In this document: positions 1,448 through 50,328 of the stretch, one piece after another
Layout: each line of letters starts with the position of its first letter
Position numbering within the stretch: the stretch's first letter is position 1
Assembly (NCBI RefSeq): GCF_000830005.1
Contig: NZ_CP010407.1
Coordinates: forward strand, 4,445,001 to 4,509,000
Reading direction: 5' to 3'
Source of the DNA: Streptomyces vietnamensis
GTDB taxonomy: Bacteria > Actinomycetota > Actinomycetes > Streptomycetales > Streptomycetaceae
DNA length: 64,000 nucleotides
Notes under the pieces: model-generated
The model's database searches: none
Seen by the model: the letters and a program-made list of their open reading frames with translations, nothing else
What the model was told of the DNA's origin: nothing
Program-made: the position numbers and the translations under genes

Positions 1448-3580
1448 GTGTCGTCTCTCGCGCTGTACCGCCGCTATCGTCCCGAGTCCTTCGCCGAGGT
1501 CATCGGGCAGGAGCATGTCACCGACCCGTTGCAGCAGGCCCTGCGGAACAACCGGGTCAATCACGCGTACCTGTTCAGCGGGCCCCGAGGGTGCGGAAAG
1601 ACGACCAGTGCGCGCATTCTCGCGCGGTGTCTGAACTGTGAGCAGGGTCCCACTCCGACGCCCTGCGGCGAGTGCCAGTCCTGCCGGGACCTCGCGCGGA
1701 ACGGGCCCGGGTCCATCGACGTCATCGAGATCGACGCCGCCTCCCACGGTGGTGTGGACGACGCCCGTGACCTGCGGGAGAAGGCCTTCTTCGGGCCCGC
1801 CTCCAGCCGGTACAAGATCTACATCATCGACGAGGCCCACATGGTCACCTCGGCGGGCTTCAACGCCCTCCTGAAGGTGGTCGAGGAGCCGCCGGAGCAC
1901 CTCAAGTTCATCTTCGCCACGACCGAGCCCGAGAAGGTCATCGGGACCATTCGGTCCCGGACCCATCACTATCCCTTCCGGCTCGTGCCCCCCGGCACCC
2001 TGAGGGACTACCTCGGCGAGGTCTGCGGGCACGAGGGCATTCCCGTCGAGGACGGCGTGCTGCCGCTCGTCGTCCGCGCCGGTGCCGGGTCCGTGCGTGA
2101 CTCGATGTCCGTCATGGACCAGCTGCTCGCCGGTGCCGCCGACGACGGTGTGACCTATGCCATGGCGACCTCTCTCCTCGGTTATACGGACGGGTCCCTG
2201 CTCGACTCCGTCGTCGACGCCTTCGCAGCCGGGGACGGCGCCGCCGCGTTCGAGGTCGTCGACCGGGTCATCGAGGGCGGGAACGACCCCCGGCGGTTCG
2301 TCGCCGATCTGCTTGAGCGGCTGCGGGACCTCGTGATCCTCGCCGCCGTGCCCGACGCCGCCGAGAAGGGGCTCGTCGACGCCCCCGTCGACGTCATCGA
2401 GCGCATGCAGGCGCAGGCGTCGGTGTTCGGGGCCGCAGAGCTCAGCCGGGCCGCCGATCTCGTGAACGCCGGGCTGACCGAGATGCGCGGCGCCACCTCG
2501 CCCCGCCTCCAGCTGGAGCTGATCTGCGCGCGCGTGCTGCTGCCCGCCGCCTTCGACGACGAGCGCTCCCTCCAGGCGCGGCTCGACCGTCTCGAGCGTG
2601 GGGCTGCCGCCGCGCCCGCGCCCGTCTTCACGCCCGGACCGCCGGCGCCCGCCATGGCGTACGTGCCCGGGCCCGAGGCCCACACCCCGATGGCCCCGCC
2701 CCCGCCGGCCCCGGCGCCCGCGCCCGTTCAGCAGGCCGCGCCCGTTCAGCAGCCCGCCCCCGTGCAGGCCCCCGTACAGGACGGGCCCCGGCCCGGTGCC
2801 TGGCCCGGTGCCGCCACCCCCGGCGGCGGCGCTCCCGGCGCCTGGCCCGGCGCGTCCGCGCCCGCGGCGCCCGCCGCCCCGGCCCCCGCGCCCGTACACG
2901 CGCAGCCCGCGCCGCAGTCCGCCGCTCCGGCTTCCTCGGGCGGGGACACGGCCCAGGTGCGGAACCTGTGGCCGCAGATCCTCGACGCCGTGAAGAACCG
3001 GCGGCGCTTCACCTGGATCCTGCTCAGCCAGAACGCCCAGGTGGCCGGGTTCGACGGTACGACCCTCCAGCTCGGCTTCCTCAACGCCGGCGCCCGCGAC
3101 AACTTCGCGAGCAGCGGCAGCGAGGAGGTCCTCAAGCAGGCCCTCGCCGAGCAGTTCAACGTGAACTGGAAGATCGAGGCGATCATCGACCCCTCGGGTG
3201 GCTCCGCGCCCCCGCCCGCCGCCACCGGCTTCGGAGGCGGAGGCGGGAGCGGAAACGGCGGCTTCGGTGGAGGCGGCGGCTTCAACGGAGGAGGAGGCGG
3301 TCGGTCCGCCGTGCCCGCCCCCGCCCCGGCCCCCGCCTTCCAGCAGGCCCCGCCGCCCGCCCCCGTACAGGCGCAGCCCGCCTCGGCTCCCGCCTTCCAG
3401 CAGGCTCCGCCGCCCGCTTCCGCGCCCGCGTACGCGCCTCCGGCGCCGCAGACCGTGGCGCCCGAGGACGACGTCCCCGAGGAGGACGACCCGGATCTCG
3501 TCGAGTCGGCGCTGTCCGGGCACGATCTGATCGTGCGCGAGCTCGGAGCCACGGTTGTGGAGGAATATCCGAACCAGTAG
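1448..3580 (+). CDS. dnaX: DNA polymerase III subunits gamma and tau
   Basis: This is the clamp-loader ATPase of the replicative polymerase. The protein has 710 residues from GTG 1448 (SSLALYRRYRPESFAEVIGQ, the usual DnaX N-terminus). Walker A is GPRGCGKT near residue 45, a four-Cys zinc module (CLNC...CGECQSC) lies at about 61-80, and Walker B (YIIDEAH) near 124. After the AAA+ and lid domains (to about 380) come a long Pro/Ala linker, a globular stretch at about 500-585, a Gly-rich segment and an acidic tail. The frame is open upstream to 1397, but that extension runs through the promoter and lacks homology. I see no evident A-rich slippage site for making gamma by frameshifting. The long antisense frame over this gene is a GC-bias shadow. 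Confidence 0.95.
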   Translation: MSSLALYRRYRPESFAEVIGQEHVTDPLQQALRNNRVNHAYLFSGPRGCGKTTSARILARCLNCEQGPTPTPCGECQSCRDLARNGPGSIDVIEIDAASHGGVDDARDLREKAFFGPASSRYKIYIIDEAHMVTSAGFNALLKVVEEPPEHLKFIFATTEPEKVIGTIRSRTHHYPFRLVPPGTLRDYLGEVCGHEGIPVEDGVLPLVVRAGAGSVRDSMSVMDQLLAGAADDGVTYAMATSLLGYTDGSLLDSVVDAFAAGDGAAAFEVVDRVIEGGNDPRRFVADLLERLRDLVILAAVPDAAEKGLVDAPVDVIERMQAQASVFGAAELSRAADLVNAGLTEMRGATSPRLQLELICARVLLPAAFDDERSLQARLDRLERGAAAAPAPVFTPGPPAPAMAYVPGPEAHTPMAPPPPAPAPAPVQQAAPVQQPAPVQAPVQDGPRPGAWPGAATPGGGAPGAWPGASAPAAPAAPAPAPVHAQPAPQSAAPASSGGDTAQVRNLWPQILDAVKNRRRFTWILLSQNAQVAGFDGTTLQLGFLNAGARDNFASSGSEEVLKQALAEQFNVNWKIEAIIDPSGGSAPPPAATGFGGGGGSGNGGFGGGGGFNGGGGGRSAVPAPAPAPAFQQAPPPAPVQAQPASAPAFQQAPPPASAPAYAPPAPQTVAPEDDVPEEDDPDLVESALSGHDLIVRELGATVVEEYPNQ

Positions 3581-43489: not shown

Positions 43490-43562
43490 GGGCCGTTAGC
43501 TCAATTGGCAGAGCAGTGGACTTTTAATCCATTGGTTGTGGGTTCGAGTCCCACACGGCCTA
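43490..43562 (+). tRNA. tRNA-Lys(TTT)
   Basis: Cloverleaf with acceptor GGGCCGT/ACGGCCT (the first pair is G1-T72, a wobble), D-arm GCTC/GAGC, anticodon TTT in CTTTTAA, T-arm GTGGGTTCGAGTCCCAC, discriminator A. Its 3' half from base 43,518 is repeated at 47,072 and marks the attachment site of an island. Confidence 0.95.
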
Positions 43563-43588
43563 CAGGTACAGAGGAGCGCCCCGACCGG
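43518..43588. repeat. Island left attachment site (attL), overlapping tRNA-Lys
   Basis: 71 bp that recur at 47,072-47,142 with four mismatches (43,524, 43,526, 43,543, 43,568). The repeat begins in the anticodon stem and runs through the tRNA 3' end into the terminator hairpin. Confidence 0.9.
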
Positions 43589-43610
43589 TTTCGGCTGGTC
43601 GGGGCGCTCC
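43573..43610. terminator. tRNA-Lys terminator
   Basis: GGAGCGCCCCGACC/GGTCGGGGCGCTCC, 14-bp stem. A variant of the same hairpin follows the right-hand repeat (about 47,131-47,160). Confidence 0.8.
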
Positions 43611-43683
43611 GTCGTTCGGGGGCGCTTGCGTGAGCGATGCGTGAGCGGACGGGCCGGTACTCCGGGGCAGAGGCCGAATACGT

Positions 43684-44193
43684 TCAGGACGTCAGGTCGA
43701 ACTGCTTGAGCCAGTTCGGGTCCCTGTCGCCGACCGTGGCGACCAGACCGCCGGACAGCAGCACCATGGAGAGGACGAAGGCCATCGGGTCTCCGTAGTG
43801 CTCCACCGCCTGGTTCAGGGTCAGGTCGGGGGCGTCCGGGTGGCCGATGAACCCCGACACCTGGAGAAGGTCGTCGTGCTGGATTCCCAGGTTGTCCGAC
43901 ACCCAGAGGACGGAGTCCCGGGCCTGATCCTCGGCGATCTGCTCCCTTGCCCCGATGAGCCAGGCCATGAGGATCGCCATGACCATGGTGGGGTCGGAGG
44001 GATGTTCACCTTCGAGGAAGGACCCTCCGGGGCCCTTCGAGGGGTTCTCCATCCAGGTGGCGATGTCCGCCCGCAGGCGCTTCCGGGTTCGGACCCGGGA
44101 GATCTCGGAGAGGTCGGGCCTCAGGTCGTGTGCTGCCCGAGCGACGCGTGCGCTCCGGCGGCGCTGGCTGTTTCGTCCCATGGCCTGGAGCAT
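43684..44193 (-). CDS. Island protein of unknown function
   Basis: 169 residues if ATG 44193 is used (GGGAGG 11 bases upstream); ATG 44181 and 44247 are alternatives. The N-terminus is basic (MGRNSQRRRSARVARAAHDL), the middle has two hydrophobic helices (TMVMAILMAWLIGAREQIAED and near the end DPMAFVLSMVLLSGGLVATVG), and the rest is mixed. No motif recognised. It is the first island gene beside attL, reading toward the tRNA. Confidence 0.5.
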   Translation of the reverse strand: MLQAMGRNSQRRRSARVARAAHDLRPDLSEISRVRTRKRLRADIATWMENPSKGPGGSFLEGEHPSDPTMVMAILMAWLIGAREQIAEDQARDSVLWVSDNLGIQHDDLLQVSGFIGHPDAPDLTLNQAVEHYGDPMAFVLSMVLLSGGLVATVGDRDPNWLKQFDLTS

Positions 44194-44279
44194 GACGCCG
44201 ATGGCCTCCCGGCCGAGGAGTCGGTGACGCGGAGACCACCCAAGCAACGCACCCTCATGTTCATGCAGCAGTACATGGG

Positions 44280-44321
44280 CGCCGCCAGGGCCGGCTCATC
44301 TCAGTGCCGGTCCTGGCGGCG
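44280..44321. terminator. Terminator of the NUDIX gene
   Basis: CGCCGCCAGGGCCGG/CCGGTCCTGGCGGCG: 15-base arms with one mismatch, 20 bases beyond the NUDIX stop on the minus strand. Confidence 0.75.
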
Positions 44322-44340
44322 TGTTGACGTACTCGAAGGC

Positions 44341-44778
44341 TCAGAGCGATGCCCCGGCTCCGAGGCTTCCGGCGCTGACGGCTCCCCGCAGGACGTGGGC
44401 GATCTCCTCGGGCCTGAGGTCGATGCCGTCGAGGCCCTCCACGGTCAGCGGGATCTCCTCCAGGGCGTATTCGCCGCGTCCTTCGGCGCTGTACTCGGGG
44501 CCGGTGCGGTCCTCGAAGGACCAGGTCGCGATGCGGGCGAGGTAGAAGAGCTGGCGCTCGTCGTCGGACTCCAGCGTGTGGAGAAGGCGGACGATGTCGG
44601 CCTTCCCCGCGATCTCCTCGTGGATCTCCCGGTGGAGGGCGGCCTCGCGGGACTCGTCGCCGGGTTCGACGCCGCCGCCGGGCAGGACCCAGTACTCGGG
44701 GATGCCGGGCCGGGTGCGGCGGATGACCAGCATCGTGTCGTCGGCGGTGATGAGGACGGCGCGGACTCGTTCGATCAT
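44341..44778 (-). CDS. NUDIX hydrolase
   Basis: 145 residues from ATG 44778 with AGGAGA nine bases upstream. The NUDIX box GGGVEPGDESREAALHREIHEE follows the Gx5Ex7REUxEExGU pattern, with all catalytic Glu present, and a typical preceding segment PEYWVLPG. Acts on a nucleoside diphosphate linked to another group; substrate not predictable. Located in the tRNA-Lys island, 30 bases after the stop of a truncated SDR gene. Confidence 0.88.
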   Translation of the reverse strand: MIERVRAVLITADDTMLVIRRTRPGIPEYWVLPGGGVEPGDESREAALHREIHEEIAGKADIVRLLHTLESDDERQLFYLARIATWSFEDRTGPEYSAEGRGEYALEEIPLTVEGLDGIDLRPEEIAHVLRGAVSAGSLGAGASL

Positions 44779-44808
44779 TTCGGTTCGTCTCCTTACTTGT
44801 TGACGGTC

Positions 44809-44950
44809 TCAGTGCAGCAGCCAGCCGCCGTCGACGTGGACGGAATGCCCCGTGATGAACGAGGCGGAGGGGCCTACGAGGAACGCCACCAGGGCCGCGG
44901 CGTCCTCGGGCCGGCCACGGCGCGGGACGCACTGGCGCTTGATCCGGTCC
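44809..44950 (-). pseudogene. C-terminal fragment of a short-chain dehydrogenase (SDR)
   Basis: The last about 46 codons read [21 protein letters not shown] then [21 protein letters not shown], the diagnostic C-terminus of SDR oxidoreductases (SxxITGxxxxVDGG). The nucleotide-binding fold and catalytic Tyr-Lys are absent: upstream, the sequence turns into an unrelated fragment on the other strand. The exact break lies near 44,945-44,968. Confidence 0.75.
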
Positions 44951-44968
44951 TCCGGCCGCGCACGGTGG

Positions 44969-45523
44969 ATGGCCCAGGACGAAGGCGACACCCCCGAACT
45001 GCGCGGACTCGCCCAGCGCTACTACGCCCACGCCTTCCGCCTGGCCGCCGAAGCCGGCGACCCGGAACTGTCCGCGACGGCCCTCCGTGGCCTCGCCGTG
45101 CAGTGCGTCGACCTCGGCTACCGGGCCGAGGCCGTCCAGCTCGGCGAAGCCTGCGTGGACCACGGCCGCCACCTCGACAATCCGCGCGCCGTTGCCTACT
45201 ACGAGGCCACCCTCGCCAACGCCGCCGCCCAGGACGACGACCGCCGCATGGCCACCAAGCACCTCGCCCTCGACATCCACGGCCTCGACCGCCGCCGTAC
45301 CCGCGCCATCGTCCTCGCCGACCTCGGCGGCGTCCGCCTCCGCCAAGGCGACGTCGACGGCACCCTGGCCACCTGGCGCGACTTCCTCGACTGCGCCGAC
45401 GGCATCCGCTGGGTCAAGGTCCAGGCCGCCTTGCAGGACATGCGCGTCCGCCTGCGCCGGTACAGCGGAGTCCCAGAGGCGCAGGAGCTTCGCATGCTGG
45501 CCGCTGAGGTCGAGACCTATTGA
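44969..45523 (+). pseudogene. TPR-containing C-terminal fragment of an XRE-type regulator
   Basis: About 184 codons ([19 protein letters not shown]...) resemble the C-terminal helical-repeat part of a large streptomycete regulator family; the N-terminal helix-turn-helix is missing. The join HLALDIHGLDRRRTR also suggests an internal deletion between two similar repeats, judged from memory of the family. It abuts the SDR fragment head to head, so two breakpoints coincide here. Confidence 0.6.
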
Positions 45524-45867
45524 TTCGGCTTTCTGTCTACCTCTCCAGGCGCACTGTGGCCATCAGGGAATGAGAGGGTTCCTTTCGCGCCGGTCTGCGT
45601 AGTTGGTTGTCGGCCATTGGCTATCGACTTCTGGCCGGTTATATACCGGTCCGCATTTCGTGTCACTACTGATGTCACGTTTTGCTGGGGAGAGATTGCT
45701 TCCTTCTAGGTCAAGCGTGGCGCGAACATGCCTGTCCTGGATGGACCCCCCAGAATCACGCCGAACCTCAAGCAAACCTCAGAGTTGCCGGCAAGCAGTA
45801 GAAAGCGGCCCGCGTGATCATTAGGTTCTTCGCAGCGCCCCAAAATGGGGTGCACGGGGAGGGGAAA
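45524..45867. other. AT-richer gap in the island
   Basis: 344 bp with no supported gene; small open frames on both strands lack ribosome sites. CCGGT-TATAT-ACCGG at 45,635-45,649 is a palindrome with an AT-rich centre. The promoter of the secreted-protein operon must lie here. Confidence 0.5.
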
Positions 45868-46518
45868 ATGATCGAATCTCGCTTAAAGCTCAGCGCAATT
45901 GCCGTTCCTGCATTCACGTTGGCTCTGGTTGCCGCCCTCACAGGCTCCGCGTCCGCGGCACCCGTGGAGGACTCCACTCCTGCCCCCAGCTATGAACTGG
46001 GGGAAACCTTCGTGCTGAACGCTTCCGACGACCCGCTCGCCCAGCTGCCCGACGCCACCGACGACACAGGCTCGGCACATCGCTGCGACAACCCCTACCG
46101 GGAGTGGCGCTCGATTGTCTCCAGCACCAGCTACTTCGTGCCCTCCCTGCTGCCGGGCACCTCGTTCAAGGACGGTCCAGGTGGCAAAATGATCGTCAGT
46201 GTCACCAAGGCGGGCTCTGTGAAGGCGGAGATCACCGCAGGTGGAGAAGCAGAACTGAGTGCCGTGGTCGCATCGGCCAAGGCGACGATCAACACGACGA
46301 TCGGCGCAGAGTTCACCTACACCATCGGCCACACCTATCAGCAGGATGTCTCTCCCCGGAAGTACGGGCACTTGCAGTACGGTTCCTACGGCTTCAAGGT
46401 CGTCTGGGGCAAGTACAGGACGAGCGCGGACCGTTGCGGCAAGACTCTCGTCAAGAGCTGGACGGCGAAGCTCCCGACGAGGGAGACCGGATGGAAGTAC
46501 TGGGAGACTCCCTCATGA
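45868..46518 (+). CDS. Secreted protein of the island, unknown function
   Basis: 216 residues from ATG 45868 behind GGGGAGGGG. A Sec signal peptide is predicted to be cut after GSASA (residue 30). The mature part has two Cys, about 140 residues apart (HRCDNPY, DRCGKTL), probably a disulfide. Between them, long stretches alternate Ser/Thr/Ala with hydrophobic residues (MIVSVTKAGSVKAEITAG, SAKATINTTIGAEFTYTIGH), suggestive of extended amphipathic beta hairpins as in aerolysin/ETX-like stalks, though I recognise no family with certainty. Its stop overlaps the lipoprotein start by ATGA. Confidence 0.75.
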   Translation: MIESRLKLSAIAVPAFTLALVAALTGSASAAPVEDSTPAPSYELGETFVLNASDDPLAQLPDATDDTGSAHRCDNPYREWRSIVSSTSYFVPSLLPGTSFKDGPGGKMIVSVTKAGSVKAEITAGGEAELSAVVASAKATINTTIGAEFTYTIGHTYQQDVSPRKYGHLQYGSYGFKVVWGKYRTSADRCGKTLVKSWTAKLPTRETGWKYWETPS

Positions 46519-46994
46519 CAGGCCCACAGCGCACAGCCGGCGTGCTCATCTGTCTTTTGGCGGCCGGCTTGACCGGCTGTACGTCGCAACCCGACCCTGA
46601 GCCGACTCCGCCCGTACACACCAGCTCCCCGAATACTGCAGCTTCCACGAGCAGCGTGGGCGAGGCCCAGGTGCGCTTGGCGCTCGGAGACGGCTCAACT
46701 GATGACGATCCGGCCTTTGTCGCCATGGGGTTCGAGCGGCTGGCCGAAGGGGCGCATACCCAGACCGTCCTCGACCGCGGCAAGGGCTACGCCCTCCAGG
46801 TCGTCTGCGTCGGCACCACAAGCGTAAAGATCACAGGAACTGGCCTGAAGCCCTCCAGCGCCGCGTGCGACGGCACGATCGTCAGCCAGAGAATCACCAA
46901 CGCGCCGGCGGACTTCACCCTCAACGTCCGCGCGACAGGCGGGGGGAACCCCAGTGGGTCGATCGGCTGGCGGCTGAACCGCCTCAGCAACTGA
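46515..46994 (+). CDS. Lipoprotein coupled to the island secreted protein
   Basis: 159 residues from ATG 46515. Lipobox GLTGC puts the lipidated Cys at residue 22, followed by a Pro/Thr/Ser linker (to about 45) and a domain of about 110 residues, beta-rich with two Cys. No family recognised. The four-base ATGA overlap with the upstream secreted protein implies made-together partners. It is the last gene before attR. Confidence 0.75.
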   Translation: MTGPQRTAGVLICLLAAGLTGCTSQPDPEPTPPVHTSSPNTAASTSSVGEAQVRLALGDGSTDDDPAFVAMGFERLAEGAHTQTVLDRGKGYALQVVCVGTTSVKITGTGLKPSSAACDGTIVSQRITNAPADFTLNVRATGGGNPSGSIGWRLNRLSN

Positions 46995-47071
46995 AACGCC
47001 CCTGGTGAGGGAGCTGCTTGCCGACCGCGCTCCCATGCCTCCAGGCTGCACCACCCATCCGACCCCAGCCA

Positions 47072-47142
47072 GGACTTCTCATCCATTGGTTGTGGGCTCG
47101 AGTCCCACACGGCCTACAGGTGCAGAGGAGCGCCCCGACCGG
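47072..47142. repeat. Island right attachment site (attR), partial tRNA-Lys copy
   Basis: Copy of 43,518-43,588 with four substitutions; it starts in the anticodon stem and lacks the tRNA 5' half, so it is not a working tRNA. One change lies in the T-loop (GGGCTCGAG for GGGTTCGAG). Confidence 0.9.
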
Positions 47143-47197
47143 ATCCTTCCGGTCGGGGCGCTTCGGCGTTCGGGGGTTTCCGGTCCGGGCGCTGCCG

Positions 47198-47737
47198 CTA
47201 CTCGTTCACGAGTACGGGGACGGAGACGACCGCGGTGGTCGGGGCGCCCTTGAGGTTCTTGGCGGGGACGGTGAAGTCGATGCCGTCGCCGGCGGCACGG
47301 GGGCCGGTGTGGGCCTCGCCGTGGCCGGTCTCGCCCTCCTCCTGGTACTGGAAGGTGCCGGTGCCGAGGAGGCGGCCGGAGGAGTCGTAGTAGGCGGCCC
47401 GCAGTTCCAGCGCCAGGACGTCGCTGATGTCGGAGGTGATGGCGAGGTGGCCGGTGACCGAGGGCTTCGGGGTGAGCGTGAGGCGGGTGAGGCGCACCCG
47501 GTCGGTGAAGGGGCCCTGTTCGATGCGGACTTCACCCTTGGCCGGGGCCGGAGAGAGCGTCGGGGCCGGAGCCGGCGCGGTGCGCGGGGCCGGGAAGGTG
47601 ACCGGTGCCGCGGACGCGGGCGGCTGCTCGGCGGCCCGGTGGTCGTCCTCGGTGCCGCCGCTGCAGCCGGTGAGCGCCACCATGGCGGGGAGGATCAGGC
47701 CGAGCGCGGCGGCCGTGGTGCGGGTGAGCGGGCTCAT
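47198..47737 (-). CDS. Lipoprotein of unknown function next to alkaline phosphatase
   Basis: 179 residues from ATG 47737 with AGGAG upstream. Signal peptide with lipobox ALTGC (Cys25), a Pro/Ala linker, then a beta-rich domain (ITSDISDVLALELRAAYYDSSGRLLGTGTFQYQEE) resembling the FxLYD-type extracytoplasmic Ig-like fold. It lies 68 bases downstream of the phosphatase gene in the same direction and is likely cotranscribed. Confidence 0.75.
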   Translation of the reverse strand: MSPLTRTTAAALGLILPAMVALTGCSGGTEDDHRAAEQPPASAAPVTFPAPRTAPAPAPTLSPAPAKGEVRIEQGPFTDRVRLTRLTLTPKPSVTGHLAITSDISDVLALELRAAYYDSSGRLLGTGTFQYQEEGETGHGEAHTGPRAAGDGIDFTVPAKNLKGAPTTAVVSVPVLVNE

Positions 47738-47805
47738 CGGCGTACTCCTGGAGGTGTGGGGGCGCGGGGCCGGGGCGTCGTCGCGCCACCGGCCCCGCGC
47801 TGCCG

Positions 47806-49323
47806 TCAGTGGGCCTGGGGGGCCCGGCCGAACAGCGAGCGGTACATCTTGCTGTACAGGTCGGTGTTGTTCTGGCTGACGGCGAAGCGCTTGCCGCCGG
47901 GGCCGTACGCGTACAGCGGGACGTCGGCACCGGTGTGGTTGCCGGACAGGTAGGCCAGCCAGAGGCTGGCCTCGGGGCTGCCGTCCTTCACGTCCGCCGC
48001 GTCGTCCGGGGTGCGGAAGGTGGCCGGGCCGAAGTTCTTCGGGTCGTTCGCGCCGGCGCCGTTGACGATGCCGGAGGAGCGGGCCGGGTCCTTGACGTTG
48101 GCCGAGGAGGAGCGCGACGGCGTGGAGTTGTTCGCCGGGTTGCCCGCGTCGGTGTTGGCCGGCGGGGCGGCCGCCTCGGCGTTGGTGAAGGAGCCCTTCT
48201 CGATGATGTTGAAGCCGGCGCACTCGTGGTCCGCCGTCACGATCACCAGGGTGTGGCCGTCCTTCTTCGCGAAGTCGACCGCGGCCTTGACGGCGTCGTC
48301 GAACGCCTTGACCTCGTCGAGGGTCTGCGCGGCGTCGTTGGCGTGCGAGCGCTTGTCGATCTGGGCGCCCTCGACCTGGAGCAGGAAGCCCTTCCTGGAG
48401 CGGTTGCTGAGCAGGGAGATGGACTTCTGGGTCATCTCCGCCAGCGTCGGCTCCTGCTTCTGCGGCGCGTCGGCCGGCAGCTTCGCCTTGGCGTTCTCGA
48501 CGGTCAGGTTGCCGCGGTTGAACAGGCCGACGACCTTGCCGCGCTTGACGTTCGCCAGGTCGTCCTTGGTGGCGACCCGCTGGGAGGCGGCGGTCTGCGC
48601 GGGCAGCGACGGGTCGCCGAAGCTGCCGAGGACCTGGTAGCCCTGGGCCTGGAGCGCCTTCTGGTCGTCCGGCTCGAAGCGGGCCAGGCCGCCACCGAGG
48701 ATGACGTCGGCGGTGCCGTTGCGGGCGATCTGCTCGGCGATCGGCGTGATCATGGTCTGGTCGGCCGGCTTGTCCTCGAACGTGCCGTCGGCCTTCCTGG
48801 GCAGGCAGGAGGCGTCCGAGTAGACCGGGCCCTGGCAGCCGCGCAGCAGCGCGTGGCTGAACTGGGCGGCCGGGGTCGCGTCGGTGATCTCGGCGGTGGA
48901 GACGTTGCCGGTGGCGAAGCCGGCCTGGTGGGCCTGCTCCATCAGCGTCGCGACGCGCTTCTCGTAGGCGTCGACGCCGAGAGCGGCGTTGTAGGTCTTC
49001 ACGCCGGACGACCAGGCGGTGGCCGAGCTGGCGGAGTCGGTGACCAGCGCGGGCTGGTCGCTGTCCTTCTCGACGGCGTACGTGGAGACGGCGCCGTAGT
49101 TCGGCAGCTTCTCCATGTTCAGCCTGCCGGTGGCGCCGTAGAAGCGCTCGCGACCGGCGGCGACGTGGGAGCGGCTCATGCCGTCGCCGAGCAGGTAGAT
49201 GACGTTGTGTATCTCGTTGTCGTCGCCCCGGTGCTGCGGGGCCGAGTTGGCGACCACGGCCGTACCGGCGGCGAGCGCGCCGGTCGTGGCGAGGACCGTC
49301 AGCATTCTGACGGACATGCGCAT
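47806..49323 (-). CDS. Secreted alkaline phosphatase (PhoA family)
   Basis: 505 residues. N-terminal signal peptide (MRMSVRMLTVLATTGALAAGTAVV). Alkaline phosphatase motifs: metal ligand Asp in YLLGDGMSRSH, nucleophilic Ser97 in VTDSASSATAWSSGVKTYN, VEGAQIDKRSHAND, and TADHECAGF. A Ser/Asn-rich loop near residue 410 is longer than in E. coli PhoA. Hydrolyses phosphate monoesters outside the cell. Streptomyces phosphatase genes are often PhoP-controlled; a single GTTCACGACCC-like unit lies upstream but a full PHO box is not visible. Confidence 0.93.
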   Translation of the reverse strand: MRMSVRMLTVLATTGALAAGTAVVANSAPQHRGDDNEIHNVIYLLGDGMSRSHVAAGRERFYGATGRLNMEKLPNYGAVSTYAVEKDSDQPALVTDSASSATAWSSGVKTYNAALGVDAYEKRVATLMEQAHQAGFATGNVSTAEITDATPAAQFSHALLRGCQGPVYSDASCLPRKADGTFEDKPADQTMITPIAEQIARNGTADVILGGGLARFEPDDQKALQAQGYQVLGSFGDPSLPAQTAASQRVATKDDLANVKRGKVVGLFNRGNLTVENAKAKLPADAPQKQEPTLAEMTQKSISLLSNRSRKGFLLQVEGAQIDKRSHANDAAQTLDEVKAFDDAVKAAVDFAKKDGHTLVIVTADHECAGFNIIEKGSFTNAEAAAPPANTDAGNPANNSTPSRSSSANVKDPARSSGIVNGAGANDPKNFGPATFRTPDDAADVKDGSPEASLWLAYLSGNHTGADVPLYAYGPGGKRFAVSQNNTDLYSKMYRSLFGRAPQAH

Positions 49324-49435
49324 GCGGATGCTCCTAGGGGAGGCTGGGCGCCGCGCACCGGCCTCTTGGCGGGCCGTGCGGCGGGCGCACCCGGACTTGC
49401 CGGGCGCCAGCGACGCTAGGAGCGGGTCGTGAACG

Positions 49436-49464
49436 CTCCTCGATGACAGGGTGTCATCGAGGAG
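49436..49464. terminator. Perfect inverted repeat CTCCTCGATGACA-GGG-TGTCATCGAGGAG
   Basis: 13-bp arms and a 3-base loop between the phosphatase promoter and the 3' end of the next minus-strand gene. Best read as that gene's terminator; an operator for the phosphatase is possible. Confidence 0.6.
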
Positions 49465-49495
49465 AACATGCAGGATGCGCTCCCTCGTTGTGCGG

Positions 49496-50089
49496 TCAGT
49501 GGGCTTCCGGGCGGCGGTAGACGCAGACGTTGACGCCCTGGGGGCTGGTGACCGTGGAGGCCAGTTCGAGGGTGCGCAGGGCGCCGTCCGCCGGGAAGAT
49601 CGACTTTCCGCCGCCGAGGAGCACCGGCATGACCATCAGGCGGAGTTCGTCGGCGAGGTCCTCGGCCAGGAGGGTGCGGGCGAGGCTGGGGCTGCCCATG
49701 ACGAGGAGGTCTCCGCCGGGCGTCCCGTGGAGTTCGCGGAGGCGGGCCACGGCCTTGTCGCCGGGGATGAGCGTGGTGTTCCAGCCGAGGTCGGCCTCGC
49801 CGAGGGTGCCGGAGACGACGTACTTCGGGAGGGCGTTCATCCGGTCGGCGAAGGGGTCGCCGGCCCGCTCCGGCCAGGCGGCGGCCATCGTCTGCCAGGT
49901 GCGGCGGCCGAAGAGGAGGGCCTCGGCCTGCGCGGTCGCCTCGTCGAACGCGCCGCCCACGACCTCCGGGTCGAAGAAGGGGTGCGTCCAGCCGCCGTGC
50001 GCGAAGCCGCCGTCGGTGTCCTCCTCGGGACCGCCCGGGGCTTGGACGACGCCGTCGAGGCTGATGAACTCGCTGATGACGATGCGCAT
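49496..50089 (-). CDS. Dihydrofolate reductase / RibD C-terminal domain protein
   Basis: 197 residues from ATG 50089 (MRIVISEFISLDGVVQAPGG), the usual start of this family; the open frame extends to 50,197 without support. Segments LLFGRRTWQTMAAAWP, KYVVSGTL and GGDLLVMGSPSLARTLL belong to the RibD-C fold, which binds NADPH. Such stand-alone proteins are not the essential DHFR and their substrates are mostly unknown. Confidence 0.85.
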   Translation of the reverse strand: MRIVISEFISLDGVVQAPGGPEEDTDGGFAHGGWTHPFFDPEVVGGAFDEATAQAEALLFGRRTWQTMAAAWPERAGDPFADRMNALPKYVVSGTLGEADLGWNTTLIPGDKAVARLRELHGTPGGDLLVMGSPSLARTLLAEDLADELRLMVMPVLLGGGKSIFPADGALRTLELASTVTSPQGVNVCVYRRPEAH

Positions 50090-50131
50090 GGGGTCGTTCC
50101 TGTTCGTCCGGGGCTGCTTCGTGGTGGGGTG

Positions 50132-50175
50132 CCGTACGGGAGTGAAGACGTGGGGTTCCGTACGGGAGTGAAGAC
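50132..50175. repeat. 18-bp direct repeat CCGTACGGGAGTGAAGAC, two copies
   Basis: Copies at 50,132-50,149 and 50,158-50,175 (26-base period), 43-86 bases upstream of the reductase-like gene on the minus strand; position is compatible with a regulator site. Confidence 0.7.
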
Positions 50176-50328
50176 AAGGCTGCCGTCGGAAAGTCATCGC
50201 TTCCCGAGAACTGTCTTCGGCGTTTCGCGGTCCTTCTTCTCGGAACTTCGTTCGTCCGAACGGCTCCGTACGGGGGCGGCGCCGGGGAACGTGGGGAAAC
50301 GTGGACGCGGAGTGTGGAGGTGGGGTCG

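Follow-up and report, generated by a model that had tools for sequence, protein, structure and literature searches.

The DNA analysed here, called the window, is a stretch of 64,000 nucleotides from Streptomyces vietnamensis (RefSeq assembly GCF_000830005.1, contig NZ_CP010407.1, positions 4,445,001 to 4,509,000, forward strand). Coordinates are those of the window, and other genomes and loci are given by their G and L numbers. A tRNA-Lys(TTT) gene in the window is followed by a small island that is bounded by a repeat of the tRNA 3' end. The island, at 43,564-47,117 (3.55 kb), is very probably an end-stage cis-mobilizable element (CIME), that is, a remnant flanked by attachment (att) sites of a tyrosine-integrase element inserting at the tRNA-Lys(TTT) 3' end. 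The features that mark its ends were as follows:

43490..43563, + strand: intact tRNA-Lys(TTT) gene (ARAGORN), the integration target
43518..43622, + strand: attL copy of a 105-bp repeat, which opens with the 46 bp of the tRNA 3' end; terminator hairpin at 43575-43610
43627..43647, + strand: two direct repeats TGCGTGAGCG (43627-43636 and 43638-43647), probable left-end arm-type integrase sites
47048..47071, + strand: inner flank of attR, GCACCACCCATCCGACCCCAGCCA, with CACCC and GCCA positioned as in 12 of 20 other islands
47072..47176, + strand: second (attR) copy of the repeat, with 90% identity to attL and no arm pair upstream

Alignment of 43,518-43,588 with 47,072-47,142 showed 67 of 71 identical positions, with mismatches at repeat positions 7, 9, 26 and 51. 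The preliminary description of this DNA had reported this match and a start inside the tRNA anticodon stem, and both were borne out, the repeat beginning in the 5' strand of the stem. The length of 71 bp given there was too short, as the repeat extended across the terminator hairpin with 94 of 105 positions identical. A search of the 9.15-Mb host genome with the tRNA region gave the second copy at E = 4e-34 and the next best match at 1e-9. The 46-bp core was found again 3' of tRNA-Lys in other Streptomyces, at various distances, as attL and attR.

The right copy resembles a genuine attR, because the tRNA 5' half is missing from it and its CACCC...GCCA flank is common to 12 of 20 other islands. 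The commonest form of the 24-base inner flank at the far core is GAACCACCC..CAAG.....GGCCA, where the window reads GCACCACCCATCCGACCCCAGCCA. An ancestral tRNA duplication, which the preliminary description had named as an outcome that would overturn its reading, was rejected on the missing 5' half. A real case for contrast was seen in G136 (L176), where two tRNA-Lys(TTT) copies, including the 5' half, lie 5.7 kb apart and arm motifs are absent.

Past the tRNA end, both window copies read ACAGGTNCAGAGGAGCG, where aligned relatives have a different, mostly longer sequence; about 28 bases that most relatives carry between tRNA and terminator are missing from the window. Among 392 genomes searched with up to 3 mismatches allowed, the host had 2 exact copies, 1 other genome had a 3-mismatch match, and the stretch was absent from 390 of the 391 other genomes. 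This likeness hints at gene conversion, or at a right copy that is the start of another, truncated unit from the same lineage. The four mismatches had earlier been taken to imply an old event; such dating is weak, because attR is under no tRNA selection, and the shared downstream sequence further unsettles it. A replication or recombination error that locally duplicated the tRNA 3' end with its terminator, followed by insertion of the genes, would suit both this sequence and a repeat that extends beyond the tRNA through the terminator. Such an origin is nevertheless highly improbable: the right copy has on its left a flank that matches the one at attR in other islands, arm repeats are present at the left end, other genomes share the 46-bp boundary, and the true duplication in G136 retains the tRNA 5' half.

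The two TGCGTGAGCG repeats lie close 3' of the left copy with a spacing of 11 bp. In relatives, arm-like motifs were located +135 to +149 relative to the left core; relative to the right core they lay at -122 to -146, with one at -94. Of the 21 delimited islands, the motif was found on the left in 18, on the right in 16 and on both sides in 15 (degenerate 9-mer, 100-base search windows). The exact 9-mer was present 90-190 bases past the core in 18 of 44 genomes; in 17 the distance was +135 to +149, and in the window +109/+120. The loci in this count were the best search matches, together with G022 and G013 (two cores) and G255 and G322 (matched by the window). No arm pair was found on the inner side of the window's right repeat copy. 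Because their placing matches that of lambda-type integrases, whose arm sites are arranged in this manner, the TGCGTGAGCG pairs are probable integrase arm sites.

Related elements were found at the same tRNA gene elsewhere in the genus. The cognate tyrosine integrases (Pfam PF00589) are P0001 (G012, 512 aa) and P0002 (G023, 543 aa). The survey covered 126 genomes. In 19 of these, a single contig carried two att cores no more than 43 kb apart; one of the 19 was the full tRNA duplication in G136. The 21 delimited islands came from 20 genomes: the window and G322 were added, G007 was counted twice and G136 was omitted. G097, G144 and G109, with two cores on different contigs, were omitted, and the islands of G012, G052, G019, G021, G045, G009 and G051 were undelimited (no second core in about 20 kb) and stand outside the list. 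In G014, a second att core of poorer match was present. Where the list gives no integrase, tblastn with the two cognate integrases had no match at E<=1e-5; other types are possible, for example in the island of G103 (21.4 kb).

Cognate integrase, full-length and free of stops, 7 islands: G018 (15.4 kb), G029 (20.8 kb), G013 (20.8 kb), G104 (21.4 kb), G023 (21.7 kb), G115 (23.0 kb), G128 (25.9 kb)
57% integrase relative, 1 island: G117 (42.1 kb), with a different attR flank and no arm motif
Integrase scraps, 5 islands: G123 (4.5 kb), G087 (5.7 kb), G322 (5.8 kb), G007 second unit (8.5 kb), G100 (10.8 kb)
No integrase detected, 8 islands: G022 (2.8 kb), G016 (2.9 kb), G121 (3.3 kb), window (3.55 kb), G057 (4.5 kb), G007 first unit (6.8 kb), G049 (9.5 kb), G103 (21.4 kb)

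A search for larger integrase-bearing relatives, proposed in the preliminary description, thus yielded seven of 15-26 kb with one tyrosine-integrase family. Among the 20 genomes with matches, all 5 full-length integrases at least 68% identical to P0001 were located at tRNA-Lys (G012, G013, G018, G023 and G029). Integrase fragments of 68-73% identity to P0001 were located at tRNA-Lys in G051, G007 and G019, and a 57-aa fragment (53%) lay near tRNA-Lys in G045. Longer relatives of 47-63% identity were found away from tRNA-Lys in G009, G052, G057 and G019, as were a broken copy in G023 and two more on other G014 contigs.

The G029 island, the only full-length one scanned for mobilisation genes, carries MobC (PF05713) and a MobA/VirD2-type relaxase (PF03432) beside the integrase, and because of these two genes it looks like a mobilizable element. 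In G117 (L188-L190), the distant integrase (57%) lies near the right end of the 42-kb island, and the end sequences are different; this island is a second element family at the same tRNA-Lys site. The order in G322 (L163, 1344-10501) is tRNA-Lys, the 5.8-kb island (gene A, described below, and an integrase scrap only), a second core and an intact integrase gene. This is a natural pair for testing cis-mobilisation, a scrap-bearing gene A island adjoining an integrase-bearing element at one tRNA-Lys site. Stacked units were also present in G049 and G007. The 2.9-kb island of G016 (L091) has room for little more than a WXG100-like protein, with Tox-REase-2 as its C-terminal domain, and the 165-aa gene behind it; the two look like a toxin-immunity pair. 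Locus L054, whose record bears the title Microtetraspora glauca NRRL B-3735, agrees with the Streptomyces loci in its tRNA and gene order, and the record name looks wrong.

The host genome had no match to P0001 at E<=1e-10, and on this result the presence of a same-family helper in the host was rejected. The preliminary description had offered either a decayed element or a satellite relying on an integrase elsewhere; the first option holds and the second found no resident integrase of the known family to rely on in that search. At the left edge of the window, an open-ended tyrosine integrase gene (3-920, + strand; PF00589, E=2e-13) adjoins a tRNA-Ser(GGA) gene (984-1071, - strand). Its product is distant from P0001 (28% identity over 157 aligned positions), and it is probably the end of another integrated element.

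The island could also be a functional non-autonomous cassette, satellite-like and moved in trans by the tRNA-Lys integrases of incoming elements, and so not a remnant at all. Arm motifs at both ends in 6 of the 8 integrase-free islands, with cargo that differs among those annotated, point in this direction, as do the G322 arrangement and the G016 island with little beyond the WXG100/Tox-REase-2 protein and one more gene. For the window this is improbable, since its copy has no right arm pair, its genome has no close integrase, and decay would account for the integrase scraps seen in five other islands.

The right repeat had been taken as the island boundary, and the DNA beyond it showed otherwise. 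The features to the right of the repeat were:

47198..47737, - strand: lip2, lipoprotein-like, 179 aa, outside the 3.55-kb unit and inside a 5.86-kb insertion
47806..49323, - strand: alkaline phosphatase (PF00245)
49477..49499, + strand: remnant of the 3' half of the ancestral tRNA-Lys terminator, within which the inserted DNA has its right edge
49496..50197, - strand: RibD/dihydrofolate-reductase-like gene (named from weak, sub-cut-off NCBIfam matches), directly behind tRNA-Lys in two sister species (empty site)

Sites without the island, another target of the earlier proposals, were found in S. tanashiensis (L047) and S. diastatochromogenes (L053), where the tRNA and terminator are directly followed by the counterpart of window 49,496-50,197. 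Window 43,616-49,476 (5.86 kb) was missing from both, and therefore the phosphatase/lip2 pair right of attR was also inserted. By this comparison, the right repeat is not the right limit of the foreign DNA; the inserted DNA reaches about 49,476, and the island is composite. An att repeat taken by itself can thus make an insertion look too short, in this case by 2.3 kb. In L050 and L052, the next gene (window from about 50.3 kb) lies close behind the tRNA, and the remaining four named loci have other DNA there. A 13-bp perfect inverted repeat (CTCCTCGATGACA / TGTCATCGAGGAG), possibly a terminator or an insertion-related end, was observed at 49436-49464, immediately within the right end of the insertion.

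The lip2 gene was found in 7 of 295 genomes, the host included. The phosphatase adjoins it in 5 of the 6 others (G038, G192, G102, G249 and G248), and none was present in G298 (1.5-kb flanks). S. diastatochromogenes (G248) has phosphatase/lip2 DNA of 87% identity at 7.27 Mb, with lip2 broken by stops, and its tRNA-Lys lies at about 4.04 Mb. The pair as ancestral right neighbour of tRNA-Lys was rejected on this sporadic occurrence and on the lack of a tblastn match within about 10 kb downstream at the 8 named loci.

The right copy may instead be the left end of a second tandem element with phosphatase/lip2 cargo and a lost right end, which would make 43.56-49.48 kb a two-element array; this is a serious possibility, though we incline slightly against it, and it is compatible with the CIME reading of the 3.55-kb unit. 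The sequence 3' of the right copy tracks element left ends up to CGTTCGGGGG and has a complete terminator, half of the host terminator remains at 49,477, and stacked units occur in G007, G049 and G322. Against an array, no arm repeats follow the right copy, and in S. diastatochromogenes the similar DNA lies elsewhere with no tRNA in the 11 kb read, so that the pair may be a simple insertion.

The interior of the 3.55-kb unit contained six genes:

43687..44181, - strand: gene A, 165 aa, found only in tRNA-Lys islands (382 genomes searched)
44344..44778, - strand: NUDIX hydrolase, 145 aa
44812..44952, - strand: SDR-family oxidoreductase, truncated to the C-terminal 47 aa
44963..45523, + strand: NsdA-family TPR regulator, truncated, C-terminal part only (NCBIfam NF053720, E=2e-33)
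45868..46518, + strand: protein E, 216 aa, signal-peptide-like start (by eye)
46515..46994, + strand: protein F, 159 aa, lipoprotein-like start (by eye), overlapping the E stop

The mean GC content was 66.7%, and uneven: 65-69% at 43.5-44.5 kb, 70-74% at 44.3-45.5 kb and 58-67% at 45.5-47.0 kb. The flanks close by had 70-76%. The unusual composition, the broken genes and the missing integrase noted in the preliminary description were all confirmed, the last by tblastn of the two cognate integrases, with no significant match within the island. No match to an integration or transfer protein was obtained from Pfam (all six genes), NCBIfam (five) or PHROGs (four), and the scanned genes included no relaxase or mobilisation gene, traB, replication protein or integrase. 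Mobility is explained by none of the interior genes.

Gene A occurred in 4 of 382 Streptomyces genomes (the host, G049, G255 and G322), always in a tRNA-Lys island; interior genes standing here in all streptomycetes, which would have spoken against insertion, were thus not encountered. It had no match in Pfam, NCBIfam, PADLOC, PHROG or PDB. The NUDIX region (44286-44793) showed 92% DNA identity to part of a same-site insert in Streptomyces sp. Root1304. PADLOC gave one match for the six proteins, that of the NUDIX protein to PDC-S07 (E=2e-11). The SDR and TPR blocks lie about 4.5-4.6 kb apart within one cluster in G126 and G233, and therefore an internal deletion at about 44,966 has brought the two truncated genes together in the window. 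Nearly the same NUDIX/truncated SDR/truncated TPR join, with 6 bases different, was seen in G191 (L162, about 3090-3180), with no att core in 7 kb; the common join is either a shared or a repeated deletion. The NUDIX-SDR and TPR blocks in other Streptomyces showed about 70-95% DNA identity, and 108 of 392 genomes (the host included) matched some part of the island at E<=1e-15.

By their starts, E looks like a secreted protein and F like a lipoprotein. The adjacent pair was also found in G200, and in G094 with E partial. The predicted structure of E had a mean predicted local distance difference test (pLDDT) score of 32, and PDB sequence searches of E and gene A gave matches at E>0.2 only, or none. 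A PHROG match of F to a spanin family (E=0.001) was not used.

Site-specific insertion at a tRNA, the central claim of the preliminary description, is supported by the att pair, the attR-type right flank, the left arm pair and the related elements at the same site in other genomes. The site without the island DNA in two sister species, the lack of an integrase here and of a close one in the genome, and gene A, common only to islands at this site, complete the evidence for the CIME. An ancestral element would have inserted into the tRNA-Lys(TTT) 3' end by means of its tyrosine integrase and restored the tRNA, this integrase family presumably recombining the two cores. Deletion would then have removed the integrase and transfer genes. 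Either later or as a second tandem element, the phosphatase/lip2 pair would have come between attR and the old host terminator. The island looks stranded, because the host has no close integrase and the right arm pair is missing; it is probably now fixed, and its mobility is unlikely. Relatives at tRNA-Lys span from 15-26 kb with an integrase to 2.8 kb without one, and the direct ancestor of the window copy was not seen. Judged from these sequences, an origin by decay is supported, not proven.

Several observations weigh against this account. The loss of the integrase by deletion is drawn from the size series and was not seen within one lineage, and the 21.4-kb G103 island, without this integrase, breaks a simple size rule. 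Without a right arm pair, the right end depends on the core and its 24-bp flank, and 8 of 20 other islands (G123, G115, G117, G018, G013, G023, G029 and G322) differ from CACCC/GCCA by at least 1 base; five of these eight (G013, G018, G023, G029 and G115) are among the seven islands whose cognate integrase is full-length. The downstream sequence common to the repeat copies is shown by neither sister and is not predicted by simple insertion. The NUDIX-SDR-TPR block, that is, most of the interior genes, has relatives elsewhere in the genus and is not element-specific. Integrase relatives of 63% identity or less occur both away from tRNA-Lys and, in G117, inside a tRNA-Lys island, and therefore identity alone does not fix the target.

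A broader proposal is that Streptomyces has recurrent small (2.8-10 kb) integrase-free tRNA-Lys cassettes with two cores and arms at both ends, moved by the integrases of passing mobilizable elements, with the window island as a dead member. We consider this rather unlikely; if true, short toxin, lipoprotein or enzyme modules would travel without any mobility gene. The analysis defines tRNA-Lys as a hotspot, for which it gives the integrase family, the att core, the probable arm sites and a series of islands from a complete mobilizable element to bare cargo. This makes a simple prediction testable: two-armed integrase-free islands would excise when given the integrase, and one-armed copies like the window island would not.

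CIMEs are defined in the available passages of PMC5704250, and the unit has both structural features given there: it is flanked by attL and attR at a mobile-element site, and it is without integration and transfer genes. The related G322 island also stands in tandem with an integrase-bearing element. The Streptomyces examples in the excerpted sources are XSAM1 adjoining pSAM2 (42 kb; PMC4891641) and TR1 of the scab toxicogenic region (20 kb; PMC8369830). The window unit differs from these in its far smaller size (3.55 kb), its tRNA-Lys target, the lack of an adjoining integrase-bearing partner and the missing right arm sites. With the actinomycete integrative and conjugative elements (AICEs) and defective AICEs, as described in the accessible parts of PMC3218068 and PMC9513070, it shares integration at a tRNA 3' end and the accretion of several elements at one tRNA. 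Unlike AICEs, it has no traB, rep or int match, and its relative G029 carries MobC and a MobA/VirD2-type relaxase. That relative resembles integrative and mobilizable elements (IMEs) in its integrase, MobC, relaxase and att pair, while the window unit has no mobility gene. The same parts of PMC3218068 and PMC9513070 report tRNA-Lys AICEs for Frankia, not Streptomyces, and within the accessible parts of the open-licence literature these were the only tRNA-Lys elements found, with no Streptomyces description of a family with arm repeats. Streptomyces CIMEs and the stacking of elements at one tRNA are thus already known, and what appears to be new is the details of the tRNA-Lys family.

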